From: Bacteroidales bacterium
GTDB lineage: Bacteria > Bacteroidota > Bacteroidia > Bacteroidales > F082
Assembly (NCBI GenBank): GCA_016284305.1
Contig: JAEEON010000074.1
Location: forward strand, 164,882-228,881
Direction of reading: 5' to 3'
DNA: 64,000 nucleotides
Below are positions 7,107 through 37,144 of the stretch, in pieces; the stretch's first letter is position 1; every line of letters begins with the position of its first letter. The translations under genes were made by a program, and so were the position numbers. Under the pieces are notes generated by a model. It saw only the letters and a list, made by a program, of their open reading frames with translations, had not been told where the DNA came from and made no database searches.

Positions 7107-7994
7107 TTATTTAATAATTTTTTGATTGAATATCGTAGTATTATTGCTTACCGAGAGTGTTGTCTGGCATCCTAATACCATTGCCCTGTTGTCGTCGATA
7201 TGTCCTGCCGGGGTATTGAAGCACACTGGGTAGTCGTATTCCCTTACGGTATCGAAGATGGCTTGTTCCACGGTTTTACCAAAGGGGTTGGGGTTGTCGT
7301 GAATACTGGTGAGGCCGCCTATCATGAGTGCTTTCAGGTTTTTTAGTTTGCCAGCACGTTTTAATCCCAGCATCATGCGTTCGACATGATAGATATATTC
7401 ATCGATTTCTTCGAGGAACAGGATGCGGTTATCCGTATCTGGAAATGAGTTGGAGCCCATCATGCCATAAAGAACAGACAGGTTGCCACCTACCAATACA
7501 CCTTGAGCTTCGCCTTGACGGTTGCAAGGATGTGCATTCCATTCATAATGGAGCGGGTTACCAAGCAAAGCGTCATAGATGGATTGAAGTGATTCAGGGG
7601 TCTTTTTTTCAAGATAGAAAGGCATGGAGGCATGAATGCTTGTCAGTCCAAGACTTTGGACTTTGCCATGGAACACCGTGGTATCGCTAATTCCGATAAG
7701 AGGTTTCGGATGCTGCACGAAGTGCGAGAAATCGATTTTGTCGATGATGTGGATGCTGCCATAGCCGCCACGGGCAAACCATATAGCGTCGATATCATCA
7801 CGATCGAGATATTCTTGAATGACCTGGGCACGGAGTTCTGCAGTTCCGGCAAAGATATAGTCTGAGGCAAACAAACGCTCGTCGAAAACGGCATTCATTC
7901 CTTTTGAATGCAGCCATTTTACGGCATATTCTACCTGCTCGGGAATCACTTTCCGTCCCGGTGCCGCTATTGCTATATGTTTTATTTCCCTCAT
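7107..7994 (-). CDS. ldcA: S66-family LD-carboxypeptidase (muropeptide tetrapeptidase type)
   Basis: A 295-residue serine peptidase of family S66, which removes the terminal D-alanine from murein tetrapeptides during cell-wall recycling; some members act on other peptides (microcin C resistance). The catalytic triad can be placed: Ser103 in GISDTT, a glutamate in LFLEEIDE (195/196) and His265 in TPAGHIDDN. ARGGYGS near residue 74-80 is another family block. Length is usual and no signal peptide is seen, so it should be cytoplasmic. It is 49 bases after a MORN-repeat gene and 11 bases before susC, which suggests the imported material contains peptides or murein fragments. Confidence 0.9.
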   Translation of the reverse strand: MREIKHIAIAAPGRKVIPEQVEYAVKWLHSKGMNAVFDERLFASDYIFAGTAELRAQVIQEYLDRDDIDAIWFARGGYGSIHIIDKIDFSHFVQHPKPLIGISDTTVFHGKVQSLGLTSIHASMPFYLEKKTPESLQSIYDALLGNPLHYEWNAHPCNRQGEAQGVLVGGNLSVLYGMMGSNSFPDTDNRILFLEEIDEYIYHVERMMLGLKRAGKLKNLKALMIGGLTSIHDNPNPFGKTVEQAIFDTVREYDYPVCFNTPAGHIDDNRAMVLGCQTTLSVSNNTTIFNQKIIK

Positions 7995-8043: not shown

Positions 8044-9525
8044 TTAATTCTCAATTAAAATCAAGTCTTTATCCTGCTTATAGGTCTCTTCAAAGAACAG
8101 TTCTCCTGTGTCCAAATATTTTTTCCAGACGCCGTTGCGGATGCCACCAGAAAAGGATTGGACTTCGCGAAGGCGGCCATTCGTATAGTAATAATAGTGT
8201 TCTCCATCGGGATAGCCACCTTTGAACGAACCCTTGAAAGCCATCTTGCCGTTGGCGTAATACGATACCCACTCCCCTACTTGATGGTCGTTGCGGTATT
8301 CTCCTTCAAAGGTCTCATTGCCTGATTGTTCCTTCCATTTTCCTGTTTTCATGCCATCGAAATAGGAACCTTTGACGATACAGTTGCCTTCTTCGTCATA
8401 TTCTTCATAATTGCCTTCAGGAACGCCATCCAAAAAGTCTTCCGTTCGTTGCATTTTTCCCGAAGGATAATACCAAGTCCAGGTACCATCAAATTGGCCG
8501 TCTTTGTAACTACCTTCTTGTTCAAGTTTCTCGCCTGGATAATAGAATTTCCAATTGCCAGAACGTTTTCCATTGATAAAGAGTCCTTTGGCTCGTAAAG
8601 TACTGTCGGGATACAGTTCTACCCACTCCCCTCGGCGAGTGCCGTCAGTGTCCATCACCCCTGATTGAACCAAGGTGCCATTTTTATAAATTTGGGAACT
8701 GATGACATTTCCATTCTCATCAAACTCACGCCAAGTGCCTTCGCGTTTGCCATCACGGAATGAAGCTTCGCGTTTGATACGGCCATTAGGATAATACTCA
8801 TGCTGCATCTGTAAGGGTTTCATCTCTGCAGCAATCACCTGTTCCACATCATTGACGTATTTTGTGATCTTCAACAGATTTCCTTTCTCATCATAGAGTT
8901 TATAGAAACCATCGCGCAATCCATGTCTGTAATAGATTTCCGATTTCAGGTCGAAGTTGGGGTAAAACTCTTTCCAATAGCCATGTTTCTTTCCTTGTGA
9001 GTCATAGCGATTGATGACTTCGCGGCTGTTGACAAAACCTTTTTTATAGGTGATAATCTCTATAAGTCTTCCAGTGGTATCATAAACAGGCGACAGACCA
9101 TCTTCATATCCATTTTTGATGGGCATCACCTGAAGCAGATGATAGCGGCGGTCAAAACGTCGGCTAAAATCGATACGTGTTCCATGGTCGAAACGCTCTT
9201 CCAACACTTCGTCAGACATATAGATTTTTCGCAAACCATGTTTGATATCTTTCTCGTAGGTGACCAGCAAAGTGGTGTCGCCTTCTTCAGAATAAAAAAT
9301 CCAAACACCATCCAAAAGAAAATCCTTACGGTTTCCTTCCGACTTTAGTTTTCCGTTTTCGTAATACGTTTTCCAATAGCCGTCAGGTTTTCCATCACGC
9401 AAGGTCCCCTCTGAAGAAATACTATCGTTGGCATACCTATATACTTGATATTCAGTCTGTCCAAAACTTACCAAAGGAGTCATGAACAAGACCAACAACA
9501 AAAGTATATAAAAGGTATTCTTCAT
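8044..9525 (-). CDS. Secreted MORN-repeat-like protein (YwqK-type repeats)
   Basis: A 493-residue protein with a signal peptide (about 1-22, ending VSFGQ) followed almost entirely by repeats of about 23 residues of the form W-x-x-YY-x-NG-K-x-x-x-EG-x-x-x-DGK-x-DG. These are MORN-type repeats, often annotated as YwqK-like antitoxin repeats in Bacteroidota although an antitoxin role is not shown for most. It probably forms an extended beta-structure in the periplasm or on the surface. Its own promoter (TTG and TAGTTTTG at 9551-9579) lies just upstream, so it probably leads the transcript that continues into ldcA, susC and susD. Function is unknown. Confidence 0.85.
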   Translation of the reverse strand: MKNTFYILLLLVLFMTPLVSFGQTEYQVYRYANDSISSEGTLRDGKPDGYWKTYYENGKLKSEGNRKDFLLDGVWIFYSEEGDTTLLVTYEKDIKHGLRKIYMSDEVLEERFDHGTRIDFSRRFDRRYHLLQVMPIKNGYEDGLSPVYDTTGRLIEIITYKKGFVNSREVINRYDSQGKKHGYWKEFYPNFDLKSEIYYRHGLRDGFYKLYDEKGNLLKITKYVNDVEQVIAAEMKPLQMQHEYYPNGRIKREASFRDGKREGTWREFDENGNVISSQIYKNGTLVQSGVMDTDGTRRGEWVELYPDSTLRAKGLFINGKRSGNWKFYYPGEKLEQEGSYKDGQFDGTWTWYYPSGKMQRTEDFLDGVPEGNYEEYDEEGNCIVKGSYFDGMKTGKWKEQSGNETFEGEYRNDHQVGEWVSYYANGKMAFKGSFKGGYPDGEHYYYYTNGRLREVQSFSGGIRNGVWKKYLDTGELFFEETYKQDKDLILIEN

Positions 9526-11902: not shown

Positions 11903-13045
11903 TTACATCCGCTTTAACACTTTCCGTAGTTTATCTTCACGGGTGAGGCATTCATAGTCGCAGAATGTGATGCCCATGTAAGTGGCGATTTTCTTCAAAT
12001 CTCCGGTAGGATCTTTTTTCAATGAGAAGATGTAGGAGTTGCAATCCACGCCCAACAAAACCTCTTTCAAGGCGCTTACCTTATAGACAATCTCGTTGAA
12101 CATGCTTTCCGAGCTGATGCCGCTTTTGCACTCAATGACATGCAGTTGGTTGTTTTTGATGAAACTCACATCCAACTCGTTGTTATGCCTGATCTCCGTA
12201 CACCCATCGATGCGCACCCCAACGGCGATGTCGTCGGGCTGTACCACTGTCTTGATGAGATAATAGACATATTCTTCAAACCATCCTCCTGTAAGATAAT
12301 CCAGTTCCTGTTGGTTTAGAATCCCTTCTTCTTTTGGAGTGAAATTGATGTATTCCAAAAACTTTCCAAGATTTGGAATGGGAGTCATATTCTCTTTTAC
12401 AGGATGTTCTGCCTCTTCTATATTAAGATATTTCCAGCCCCGGTATTTCTCGCGCAACACATCCAGGATTTTGTATTCGCTGCTTCGTATCTGTTGTTTT
12501 GAGAATAGGTTAAACATCTGCCTTGACTGTGTCTCGTCAGAGATGGGCGGTTGTAAGGCATCAATGTCGTGGCTCAAGCCATAAGCTTCGAAATACTCGG
12601 CCAGGGTCATCCGGTAATGGATGGGGATGATCTCATCGTCATTGTCGTAGATGCTGTTATCAAAGATCGTTTTGACGATAAGGTTTTGGTGGGTTTGGAT
12701 GTAGTAGAAAGTACTGTGATAGTTGGAGAACACATGTTGCACCGACAGGGCCATGTATCGGGAACCTCCAGCTAGGTTAACATAGTACTCAGTGTCTTTA
12801 TTGATGCCGTTGTTAATGGTTCGGCATATACGTTCGTAGGTATAGCTGTCGGAGTCGCGCCTGAGCACAATACGCTGCACCACCCCTGGGTCAACCTGGA
12901 GTATTTTGACCAAAGGGGTGATGCAGTCGAAGCTGTCGTTGGCCGAGACGAACAATAGTTGGTCGCCTTCTTCGAAGAACTCTTTGATGAAGAGGTAGGC
13001 GGCGACAGGATGTTCGCGGGTGATGATGTTGACCAGCGTCTTCAT
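11903..13045 (-). CDS. Card1/Can2-like CARF-domain nuclease (DUF1887 family)
   Basis: A 380-residue protein with the plan of CRISPR ancillary nucleases Card1/Can2. The N-terminal Rossmann-like CARF domain (about 1-145) carries NLAGGSR at 90-96, the usual cyclic-oligoadenylate contact motif. A linker/winged-helix-like middle follows. The C-terminal PD-(D/E)xK nuclease domain has GGWFEE (253-258), E290-L-D292 and E305-C-K307, so the active site looks intact. In known members cA4 made by a type III Cas10 triggers nicking of single-stranded nucleic acid. Here no cas10, other cas gene or CRISPR array is in the window. Its ATG overlaps the pgk stop (TAATG, one shared base), so it is translationally coupled to a glycolysis gene. 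Family call is confident; the activating signal is unknown. Confidence 0.85.
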   Translation of the reverse strand: MKTLVNIITREHPVAAYLFIKEFFEEGDQLLFVSANDSFDCITPLVKILQVDPGVVQRIVLRRDSDSYTYERICRTINNGINKDTEYYVNLAGGSRYMALSVQHVFSNYHSTFYYIQTHQNLIVKTIFDNSIYDNDDEIIPIHYRMTLAEYFEAYGLSHDIDALQPPISDETQSRQMFNLFSKQQIRSSEYKILDVLREKYRGWKYLNIEEAEHPVKENMTPIPNLGKFLEYINFTPKEEGILNQQELDYLTGGWFEEYVYYLIKTVVQPDDIAVGVRIDGCTEIRHNNELDVSFIKNNQLHVIECKSGISSESMFNEIVYKVSALKEVLLGVDCNSYIFSLKKDPTGDLKKIATYMGITFCDYECLTREDKLRKVLKRM

Positions 13046-14298
13046 TATTTCTTGATGGCTGCGATGCCAGGCAGTTCTTTGCCTTCGATGGCTTCGAGCA
13101 GGGCACCGCCACCAGTGCTGACGTAACTCACTCTGTCGGCCAGACCGAACTTGTTGATGGCACTGACAGTGTCGCCTCCACCGATCAAGGTATAGGCTCC
13201 GTTTTGTTCTGTTGCCTCCACGCAGGCCTCGGCCAGGGCTTTGGAGCCTTCAGCGAACTTGTCGAACTCAAACACGCCGCATGGTCCGTTCCAGAGAACG
13301 GTTTTCGACTGTTTGATGATACCGGCGTAGAACTTACGGCTTTCAGGACCGCAGTCCATGCCTTCCCAGCCGTCGGGAACGTTCATCGGATCGACCACCA
13401 TGGTGTTGGCATCGTTGGAGAAGCTGTCGCCTGCCACCACGTCAAACGAGAGATAGAGGTTGATACCTTTTTGTTTGGCTTTTTCGATGATGTCGAGGGC
13501 GAGATCGAGTTTATCCTCCTCACAGATGGAGTTACCCACATGGCCTCCCAGAGCGCGTTTGAAGGTATAAGTCATGCCTCCACAGAGAATCAGGTTATCG
13601 ACTTTTGTCATCAGGTTCTCGATGATTTCGATTTTGGTGGAGACCTTTGATCCACCCATGATGGCGGTGAAGGGGCGTTGAATCTCATTCATGACCTTGT
13701 TGACGGCAGCCACTTCCTTGGCCATCAGGTAACCAAACATCTTATGTTCGGCATCGAAATAGTCGGCGATGAGTGCGGTAGAAGCATGGGCACGGTGAGC
13801 GGTGCCAAAGGCGTCGTTGATGTAGTAATCGCCGTAGCTTGCCAGAGTTTTGGTGAATTCCTTTTGTGAGGCTTTGATCGCCTTCTTGGCTTCGTCGTAA
13901 CCCTCTTCTCCTTTTTCGATGCCACGGGGCTTGCCTTCTTCCTCGGCATAGAAGCGGAGGTTCTCAAGCACCAACACCTCGCCAGGTTTCATGGCTGCCA
14001 CTTGGTCAGCGGCTTTCATGCAGTCGGTCGCAAATTGCACGGGACGGCCCAGCAACTCTTCCAGGTGAGCGATAATGGGTTTGATGGAATACTTTGGGTC
14101 AGGGTTCTTCTTTGGGCGGCCAAGATGCGACATCAGTACCACCATTCCCTTGTCGTTCAGCACCTTATTGATGGTTGGCAAGGCGGCACGCATACGAGTG
14201 TCGTCGGTGATGTTGAAGTTGTCGTCCAACGGGACGTTGAAGTCAACACGGATGACCACGTGTTTTTCTGCAAAGTTGATTTGATCGATGTTTACCAT
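13045..14298 (-). CDS. pgk: Phosphoglycerate kinase
   Basis: A 417-residue glycolytic enzyme that transfers phosphate from 1,3-bisphosphoglycerate to ADP. Family blocks are clear: RVDFNVPLD near residue 20, LMSHLGRPK near 60, the [10 protein letters not shown] block near 215 and the nucleotide-binding GGGDTVSA near 375. Full length. It lies 45 bases after dagK on the same strand and its TAA shares a base with the ATG of the CARF nuclease downstream, so dagK, pgk and the nuclease gene form one likely transcript from the promoter at 15313-15342. Expression of a core glycolytic gene would thus also set the level of the nuclease. Confidence 0.98.
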
Positions 14299-14343: not shown

Positions 14344-15291
14344 TCATTTGATGATCATCTGGATAGCCTTTGGCATCATCTCGAAGTCGAATGGCGAGTT
14401 GGTCAAAGTTTCCCCTTCAGTCTCAAGCAGTAGCTTATGGGCCGGTATGGAGATGATGCGGATTTTCTTTCCCCGATAGGTGCTCACCTCTTTGAGTTTG
14501 TCGATGAAGGTTCCGTTATAGAGGTTGTTGATGTTGGCGGCGAATTTCATCAGCCCCACTTTTTTGATGACGGTGATGTCGAACAACCCGTCGTCAGGGA
14601 TGGCGTCGCGCATCATCATCATGCCGCCTCCGTTGTATTTTCCGTTGCCTACCGATAGGCTTAAAATCTCATCGTCGAAAACCAACTGGTCATCCACCTC
14701 AAGTTGGATGTGGACACACTTATAGTTGAGCAGGCAACTGGCTGTGCTGAGCATATAGCGCACGGAACCACCTTTGCCTTCGGCCTTCATTTTGTTGGTT
14801 CTTCCGCACACCATCTCGTCCAATCCAGTGCCAGCGGCATTCAGGAAATACCGCACCTGCGGATCGCCATGGTTAAAGTATGTCACTTTTCCAATATCAT
14901 GTAAGAAGGATTTTCCCTCTTTGATGATTTTCACATTTTGTGGATAATCAAGAGGTATGTCGAACGTTCTTCGCCAATCGTTGCCTGTCCCAACGGGGAT
15001 CACTCCCATCTGGATTTCTTGTGTAGGAAAACGTTGTTGGCTGAAGATGCCGTTGATGACCTCGTTGTTGGTACCATCACCGCCAATGGAGATGATTTTT
15101 TTATAGCCTTTCGTGTTGATGTTGTCGCGGACAATTTCGATGGCATGACGGGGATGCGTTGTCTTAATCGCATCGAATTCGATTTGTTCTTGGAGTAAAA
15201 GTCGTTCTATCTCAGGCCAATCCTTTTCACATTTGCGAATGGATGCGTTTGGATTAACAACGACTAACCACTTGTTTGTTGTTTCGCTCAT
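14344..15291 (-). CDS. Diacylglycerol/lipid kinase (YegS/BmrU-like)
   Basis: About 315 residues with the diacylglycerol kinase catalytic fold. VVNPNAS near residue 11 and SIGGDGTNNEVING around 69-81 are the nucleotide-binding signatures, and GTGNDW follows. It should phosphorylate a lipid such as diacylglycerol at the inner face of the membrane. The frame is open to 15366, but the ATG at 15291 is preferred because the promoter at 15313-15342 lies inside the longer version and the family normally begins just before the VVNP block. It leads the probable dagK-pgk-nuclease transcript. Confidence 0.9.
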   Translation of the reverse strand: MSETTNKWLVVVNPNASIRKCEKDWPEIERLLLQEQIEFDAIKTTHPRHAIEIVRDNINTKGYKKIISIGGDGTNNEVINGIFSQQRFPTQEIQMGVIPVGTGNDWRRTFDIPLDYPQNVKIIKEGKSFLHDIGKVTYFNHGDPQVRYFLNAAGTGLDEMVCGRTNKMKAEGKGGSVRYMLSTASCLLNYKCVHIQLEVDDQLVFDDEILSLSVGNGKYNGGGMMMMRDAIPDDGLFDITVIKKVGLMKFAANINNLYNGTFIDKLKEVSTYRGKKIRIISIPAHKLLLETEGETLTNSPFDFEMMPKAIQMIIK

Positions 15292-15312: not shown

Positions 15313-15342
15313 CAAAGATAAGAAGGTTTTGTTTATGAACAA
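15313..15342 (-). promoter_or_regulatory. Promoter of dagK-pgk-CARF nuclease
   Basis: On the minus strand TTG (15340-15342), a 19-base spacer and TATCTTTG (15313-15320), with the dagK ATG about 21 bases on. A close match to consensus; it decides the dagK start at 15291. Confidence 0.65.
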
Positions 15343-35820: not shown

Positions 35821-35893
<73 letters not shown>

Positions 35894-37073: not shown

Positions 37074-37144
37074 AGGTACCTGGCGGATTCGAACCGCCGT
37101 CCCCGGTTTTGCAGACCGATCCCTAACCGCTCGGGCAAGGTACC
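37074..37144 (-). tRNA. tRNA-Cys (anticodon GCA)
   Basis: A 71-base cloverleaf on the minus strand. The acceptor is GGTACCT/AGGTACC, the anticodon loop CTGCAAA gives anticodon GCA, and the T-arm contains GGTTCGAATCC. CCA is not encoded. A promoter (37156-37184) and a terminator (37049-37067) bracket it. Confidence 0.95.

Follow-up and report, generated by a model that had tools for sequence, protein, structure and literature searches.

A CRISPR-unlinked CARF nuclease beside the phosphoglycerate kinase gene and its R-type orphan subfamily in the Bacteroidales

The stretch of DNA analysed here, referred to below as the window, covers 64,000 nucleotides from the genome of a Bacteroidales bacterium and encodes on its minus strand (11903..13045) a nuclease of 380 amino acids from the Card1/Can2 (DUF1887) sequence family, which we assign to an R-type orphan subfamily. 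Upstream of the nuclease gene and on the same strand are pgk, the gene for phosphoglycerate kinase (13045..14298, 417 aa; PF00162, 5.8e-148), and dagK of the diacylglycerol kinase family (14344..15291; PF00781, PF19279), the start of which was set at codon 26 of the listed open reading frame, the point where many homologues begin aligning. Downstream are a convergent gene for a LUD-domain iron-sulphur protein and rpiB, the latter named by eye. A MORN_2 repeat protein of 493 aa is encoded on the minus strand (8044-9525) between an LD-carboxypeptidase-like open reading frame (7107-7994) and rpiB, and a gene pair in the relatives (F4 and F5) matches these two in sizes and place. A scan of the window against Rfam gave, at the gathering score, two tRNA genes and nothing else, at 35821-35893 on the plus strand and at 37074-37144 on the minus strand.

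The nuclease has an N-terminal CARF domain (residues 5-151, 12593..13033, matching PF23400) and a C-terminal nuclease domain (residues 248-344, 12014..12304, matching PF09002), both on the minus strand and both with scores above the curated Pfam cut-offs (CARF_Card1, 2.4e-11; Card1_endonuc, 3.5e-19). The earlier note described a complete CARF domain joined to a PD-(D/E)xK nuclease, and this description holds down to the numbering of the ligand-pocket loop N90-L-A-G-G-S-R96 (12758..12778, minus) and of the catalytic motifs E290-L-D292 (12170..12178, minus) and E305-C-K307 (12125..12133, minus). All four residues of the active site, E290, D292, E305 and K307, are in place; the first motif aligns with E276/D278 of Can2 and D294 of Card1, and D292, E305 and K307 are found in all 71 aligned loci (63 orphan loci and eight comparison loci). 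The fold match, too, spans the full length, and the PADLOC match is to CARF4--CARF_PDDEXK (1.7e-59). CARF nucleases of the Card1/Can2 family are customarily read as type III CRISPR effectors, and two of the PADLOC models that match the protein carry a CAS-III signalling mark, while its named homologues are mostly titled just "DUF1887 family protein." The reading of the window protein as a nuclease of the Card1/Can2 fold is supported, and so is its situation outside any type III locus.

The start codon of the nuclease gene and the stop codon of pgk share base 13045 in a TAATG on the minus strand (13043..13047), just as had been noted before. Stop-start overlaps are by themselves common in bacteria. 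The part beyond chance is that the one-base overlap, as TAATG or TGATG, is retained in 11 of the 13 loci of subclade A1, which comprises the window and 12 other loci with 67-85% identity. Of the two remaining loci, one has a four-base overlap (ATGA) and the other a distance of 4 nt, and the two genes overlap in 12 of the 13. We also applied the -33/-7 consensus with TAnnTTTG, which we take to be the Bacteroidota-type promoter, to the regions upstream of dagK and of the nuclease gene. The nearest promoter-like site upstream of the nuclease gene lies before dagK (TTG-N19-TATCTTTG, 15313..15342, minus), with TATCTTTG at 15320(-) and the TTG 19 nt ahead of it, and there is no other copy of TAnnTTTG on the minus strand between this motif and the nuclease ATG, in agreement with the shared promoter upstream of dagK that had been proposed. 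Likewise, in all 13 A1 loci TAnnTTTG stands 28-34 nt ahead of the point that corresponds to dagK codon 26, and it is found within 80 nt before the nuclease gene in none of them.

The arrangement is different in the sister subclade A2, with 35 loci. Here, pgk is located upstream and on the same strand in 29/29 loci in which it could be read, but at a distance of 78-4462 nt and usually with another gene in between, and TAnnTTTG occurs in the 80 nt before the nuclease gene in 19 of the 35 loci, against a background of 3.6% of the 80-nt windows in these loci. The difference between the subclades in the presence of a promoter motif of their own (Fisher p 0.0005) is indicative only, since the sequences are related. 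The comparison of pgk neighbourhoods thus gave a divided answer: the order is fixed, the nuclease gene following pgk in each of the 42 intact loci in which pgk was read, while the overlap is confined to A1. Judged from the A1 overlap without an own motif, and from the distance and own motif in A2, the coupling to pgk is a feature of one subclade, and it is the independence from CRISPR that is general. The locus appears to be old and fixed, with co-expression with pgk a probable trait of A1. The suggestion that the level of the nuclease follows that of a glycolysis gene therefore fits the arrangement in the subclade of the window but is not supported as a general rule, and neither is the broader idea of a wiring to glycolysis; relatives with 42-47% identity are found beside unrelated genes.

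Other genes at these loci were considered as partners of the nuclease and rejected. F3 lies between pgk and the nuclease gene in 28 of the 35 A2 loci, but it also follows pgk in six of the ten non-carrier loci viewed and carries a type IX secretion tail (PF18962, slightly below the cut-off), and it is therefore taken for a neighbour. An AAA_14 ATPase gene (F22) sits between pgk and the nuclease gene in a few loci and its placement is not conserved.

The genome to which the window belongs is 2.59 Mb in size, 89% complete, and contains one gene of the Card1 family. Searches of this genome for Cas10, SMODS, RAMPs and GGDEF domains gave no match to any of them. No CRISPR array was found in the window with a simple exact-repeat script, and no CRISPR genes were present among the scanned genes flanking the nuclease. 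Elsewhere in the genome there is a type II system (C35, L107:4444-13184) in which a Cas9 of 1432 aa, Cas1 and Cas2 are accompanied by an array with 30 or more repeats. The impression of a locus with no CRISPR in sight is thus correct for the window and incorrect for the genome, though the system there is one without Cas10. A second, shortened type II cas1 is located at L108:8997-9515 (C60), and the one neighbour scanned there has no PADLOC match.

Orthologues with at least 52% identity were identified in 48 of 90 genomes of the same genus (G000-G089), most carrier genomes being metagenome bins, and the reading frame is intact in 47 of them. The broken copy, in G049 (L088:10001-11095), is interrupted by a stop and by breaks in the frame and was excluded from trees and motif counts. 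A 49th match represents a distant relative in G001 (L126:6205-9351), a Card1-family nuclease with 22% identity and the motif KCGTK, whose gene follows one for arginine decarboxylase after 30 nt; no Cas10 was found in this genome. Only two of the 90 genomes contain Cas10, the carrier G079 and the non-carrier G024, corresponding to one of 48 carriers and one of 42 others, and none of the 19 carriers with a completeness of 90% or more and a contamination of 5% or less has it. Furthermore, type III RAMPs were detected in none of the 13 A1 genomes, with G079 as a positive control, and GGDEF domains in none of the 14 genomes searched for them. SMODS-type CD-NTases are present in six of the 48 carriers and not in the genome of the window, so this search for an alternative cyclic-nucleotide synthase came out empty for this genome and positive for a minority of the carriers; a CBASS or CD-NTase effector would be expected to share its genome with such an enzyme. 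At an E-value of 1e-5 the nuclease had no matches in phage and plasmid collections.

With Cas10 in a single carrier and in none of the best-quality genomes, and with no Cas10 system beside it or elsewhere in its own genome, the window gene appears not to encode a type III CRISPR effector. The same data render it improbable that the nuclease answers to a Cas10 at a distance, as had been proposed, and an intact gene at a fixed place in dozens of gut Bacteroidales genomes that are almost always devoid of Cas10 suggests that the nuclease probably responds to another signal. G079 provides a natural control. On one of its contigs, a CARF nuclease gene with the standard pocket (L109) accompanies Cas10 (best PADLOC subtype label III-A), RAMPs and CRISPR repeats, while the orphan orthologue (L064) is on a separate contig with the usual neighbours on both sides except for pgk, which a third contig carries.

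When named genomes were scanned, 63 related loci were obtained. The closely related among them come from bins of Bacteroidales or Bacteroidia, many titled after ruminant or horse samples and one carrying the name Candidatus Limimorpha. In group B, with 42-47% identity, Cas10 was found in 3 of 14 genomes, and for the named comparison loci in 5 of 5. The group B loci have another setting: in 12 of 15 the nuclease gene is preceded by a shared gene (F13), which was rejected as a partner because its product is of a secreted type (CHU_C). Yet other surroundings are seen for L084 (the same genome as G227), which adjoins genes for ThiF and a peptidase of family S51, and for the orphan in G445, next to an aldose 1-epimerase gene. 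Two CARF nucleases from Cas10-bearing genomes, L090 (6310-13512) and L089, are preceded by a Schlafen AlbA_2 gene, followed by a PIF1-like helicase gene and adjoin CRISPR arrays; related helicases (F53) recur in L092 and L094.

The feature that sets the orphan loci apart is a switch in the ligand pocket, which the earlier note left unmentioned. In every one of the 63 orphan loci the loop reads AGGxR, with A92 and R96, and A92, G93, G94, R96, Y97, Y115 and N121 are all invariant among them, whereas the eight comparison loci (seven from Cas10-bearing genomes, plus L126) have Lys at the position of R96 in all cases and Thr at that of A92 in seven. The first pocket loop is also changed and is one residue longer than in the comparison loci. 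In total, 17 positions define the group when 65 orphan rows, counting G227 and L084 from the same genome, are set against 16 K-type rows (seven of the eight comparison loci and nine of 26 loci from the order); ten of these are inside the CARF domain, and T92A and K96R are without exception. The pocket differences from the K-type relatives are T92A, K96R, N16A and S6N. Position 9 varies between the subclades, with Thr or Ser in 11 of 13 A1 loci and Asp in 35 of 35 A2 loci.

An order-wide draw of 393 genomes, taken from the equal size and handles to be the same set in both scans, contained the nuclease domain in 33 genomes and a Cas10 match in 44. Three of the 33 are from the genus of the window; from the other 30, 27 loci were taken (G264 was unreadable, and G257, G360 and G370 had no locus), leaving out second or third copies in G109, G358 and G467, and with G091 aligning poorly. 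Among 26 loci outside the genus, 24 have Lys and two have Arg, namely G227, already counted as L084, and G445, with 47% identity to the window protein. Lys is present in 12 of 12 loci from Cas10-positive genomes, but also in 12 of 14 from Cas10-negative genomes, and the Arg is therefore a mark of the lineage rather than of the loss of Cas10 as such.

In the phylogeny, the 63 orphan loci fall on one side of a branch (support 99) that separates them from the eight comparison loci, with A1 and A2 each on one side of a branch of its own. In a more careful tree with 27 rows, 14 R-type rows are separated from 13 K-type rows by a single branch (100/99); Cas10-bearing genomes account for eight of the K-type rows, and closest to the R-type rows stand L109 and L089 (94/86, not starred). 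In these trees, both midpoint-rooted and without an outgroup, the R type is likely to have been derived from the K type. Because the R-type and K-type rows split at one branch, the association between Arg and the absence of Cas10 rests on one event.

The nuclease also appears to have resided at the locus for a long time. Over A1 and A2 together, the CARF distances follow those of the LUD gene (correlation coefficient 0.944, 25 loci) and, less closely, those of rpiB (0.694, 27), dagK (0.461, 42) and pgk (0.365, 41), which supports long-term residence. Within A1 alone the agreement is poor (r 0.03, p 0.37 for pgk; 0.24, p 0.025 for dagK; 0.34, p 0.044 for the LUD gene), so that replacement or recombination may have occurred inside this subclade. 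The median dN/dS is 0.089 over 309 A1/A2 pairs with usable dS, a set in which the window itself forms no pair. For the CARF domain, the linker and the nuclease domain, the uncorrected pN/pS ratios are 0.26, 0.36 and 0.17, respectively, in A1, and 0.17, 0.18 and 0.09 in A2. Both domains are under constraint.

How the altered pocket relates to cA4 can be judged from Cdn1, in which T9, Q11, T37, K104 and Y124 contact cA4 and are highly conserved across clades, T100 belongs to the pocket around the cA4 bases, and the substitutions T9A, K104A and Y124A are reported to severely reduce the cA4-induced activity (PMC12825302). The window protein lacks the full set: T9 and Y115 are kept, R96 takes the place of K104, and H12 and A35 occupy the Gln and Thr columns, where the match of K104 comes from a printed alignment to Cdn1 and the remaining ones indirectly, by way of Card1, Can2 and L109. 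In the HMMER alignments, T100 and K104 of Cdn1 fall in its TGGTK, at the positions of A92 and R96, and S19 of Can2 is opposite residue 9 of L109. The pocket of the window protein lies between the cA4 type and that of the orphan protein VC1899: it has Arg in place of Lys, and Ala where two Thr would stand, but retains the Tyr and T9. Since these differences are complete and frozen in a lineage that is almost always without Cas10, they argue for a different ligand, and the switch from Lys to Arg and from Thr to Ala is the best lead to it. As Arg can stand in for Lys in phosphate binding, Y115 is kept and position 9 is Thr or Ser in most A1 loci, cA4 or a close relative may nevertheless be the ligand.

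We hypothesize that the window protein is a stand-alone, ligand-gated nuclease from a CRISPR-unlinked subfamily, co-expressed with pgk, that would cut DNA or RNA in response to a nucleotide signal other than cA4, and we give this reading about an even chance. By analogy with Card1 and Can2, it would be a homodimer that is off without ligand; a nucleotide other than the cA4 made by Cas10 would bind in the altered pocket between the two CARF domains and bring the nuclease domains into the cutting state, and the resulting cleavage would lead to growth arrest or dormancy. A role in defence or stress arrest is suggested by the family to which it belongs. The gene layout would make the A1 protein always present at a level tied to pgk, that is, a standing rather than an induced sensor. 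A bolder extension, which we offer tentatively as possible rather than probable, is that the R-type proteins serve the Bacteroidales as receptors for a nucleotide second messenger that is endogenous and as yet undescribed, having left type III systems once, changed ligand, become fixed in the chromosome and, in one subclade, been wired to pgk, where a loaded nuclease would always be at hand.

Several other explanations can be considered. One is that the CARF domain senses nothing and that the protein is a vestigial or ligand-independent nuclease with a weak housekeeping role, as may be the case for VC1899, an orphan with Arg96 for Lys99 and Val115 for Tyr118 that reportedly combines a weak RNase activity with a lack of regulation by cA4 (PMC7969007). 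The Asp at position 9 throughout A2 is like Asp9 of VC1899 (PMC7969007), in contrast to the Thr or Ser of most A1 loci. However, the pocket loop is frozen at its seven invariant positions rather than decaying, the pN/pS values of the CARF domain are low in both subclades, and the pocket Tyr, a Val in VC1899 (PMC7969007), is kept in all 63 orphans, all of which makes this explanation doubtful.

Another explanation is that the protein is still a cA4 receptor, acting in trans with type III systems on mobile DNA or in other strains of the species. The change from Lys to Arg is conservative, G079 combines an orphan orthologue with a Cas10 locus, and a few genomes in group B also contain Cas10. On the other hand, Cas10 is not associated with the gene, being about as rare in carriers as in non-carriers, the Cas10 locus in G079 has its own K-type nuclease, Lys is present in every Card1-family locus read from the Cas10-positive genomes of the order, and the phage and plasmid collections gave no match. 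We therefore regard it as quite unlikely. Very improbable, finally, is the idea that a metabolite of glycolysis or of the energy state is what the CARF domain senses, with a functional tie between the nuclease and phosphoglycerate kinase, as suggested by the overlap in A1 and by the recurrence of metabolic neighbours such as the arginine decarboxylase gene before L126, because the A2 genes are distant from pgk and often have a promoter motif of their own, and the neighbours of the orphans in G445 and G227 vary while the pocket loop is the same.

The R-type subfamily is large, supported by the trees, conserved and almost always without Cas10, and it can be recognized by the diagnostic motif NLAGG-x-R. 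With a Cas10-linked TGGTK cousin in the same genus as a natural control, and with a defined set of pocket differences, CARF sensing without Cas10 can be put to a direct test in binding assays and by mass spectrometry.

The kind of protein described here is already known. Each CARF family is reported to have some members that are not linked to CRISPR (PMC4012209), and VC1899 is another such case (PMC7969007). A pgk-linked CARF nuclease or an AGGxR subfamily appears in no title or abstract opening among the matches listed from the open-licence literature, and the same applies, within those matches, to the clade, the motif, the fixed place and the pgk overlap. Card1 (PDB 6wxw, 6wxx and 6xl1) and Can2 (7bdv and 8q3y-8q44) are ancillary nucleases of type III CRISPR systems, whereas the window protein is outside a type III locus, has AGGxR for the TGGTK pocket loop and a changed first pocket loop, and is 22% identical to Card1 in the structural alignment. 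Cdn1 (8z4i and 9u49), a DUF1887 nuclease from a type III-B locus, belongs to the same family and offers an experimentally mapped cA4 pocket, with T100 and K104 where the window protein has A92 and R96. VC1899 from Vibrio cholerae (1xmx) is an orphan DUF1887 protein that, like the window protein, has no type III association, and both have Arg for Lys, but only the window protein keeps the Tyr (Y115; PMC7969007). A further comparison is with L109 from the same genus, which has the same architecture and is 37% identical, but is linked on its contig to Cas10, RAMPs and CRISPR repeats and carries the loop VNLTGGTK in place of the AGGxR of the orphans.
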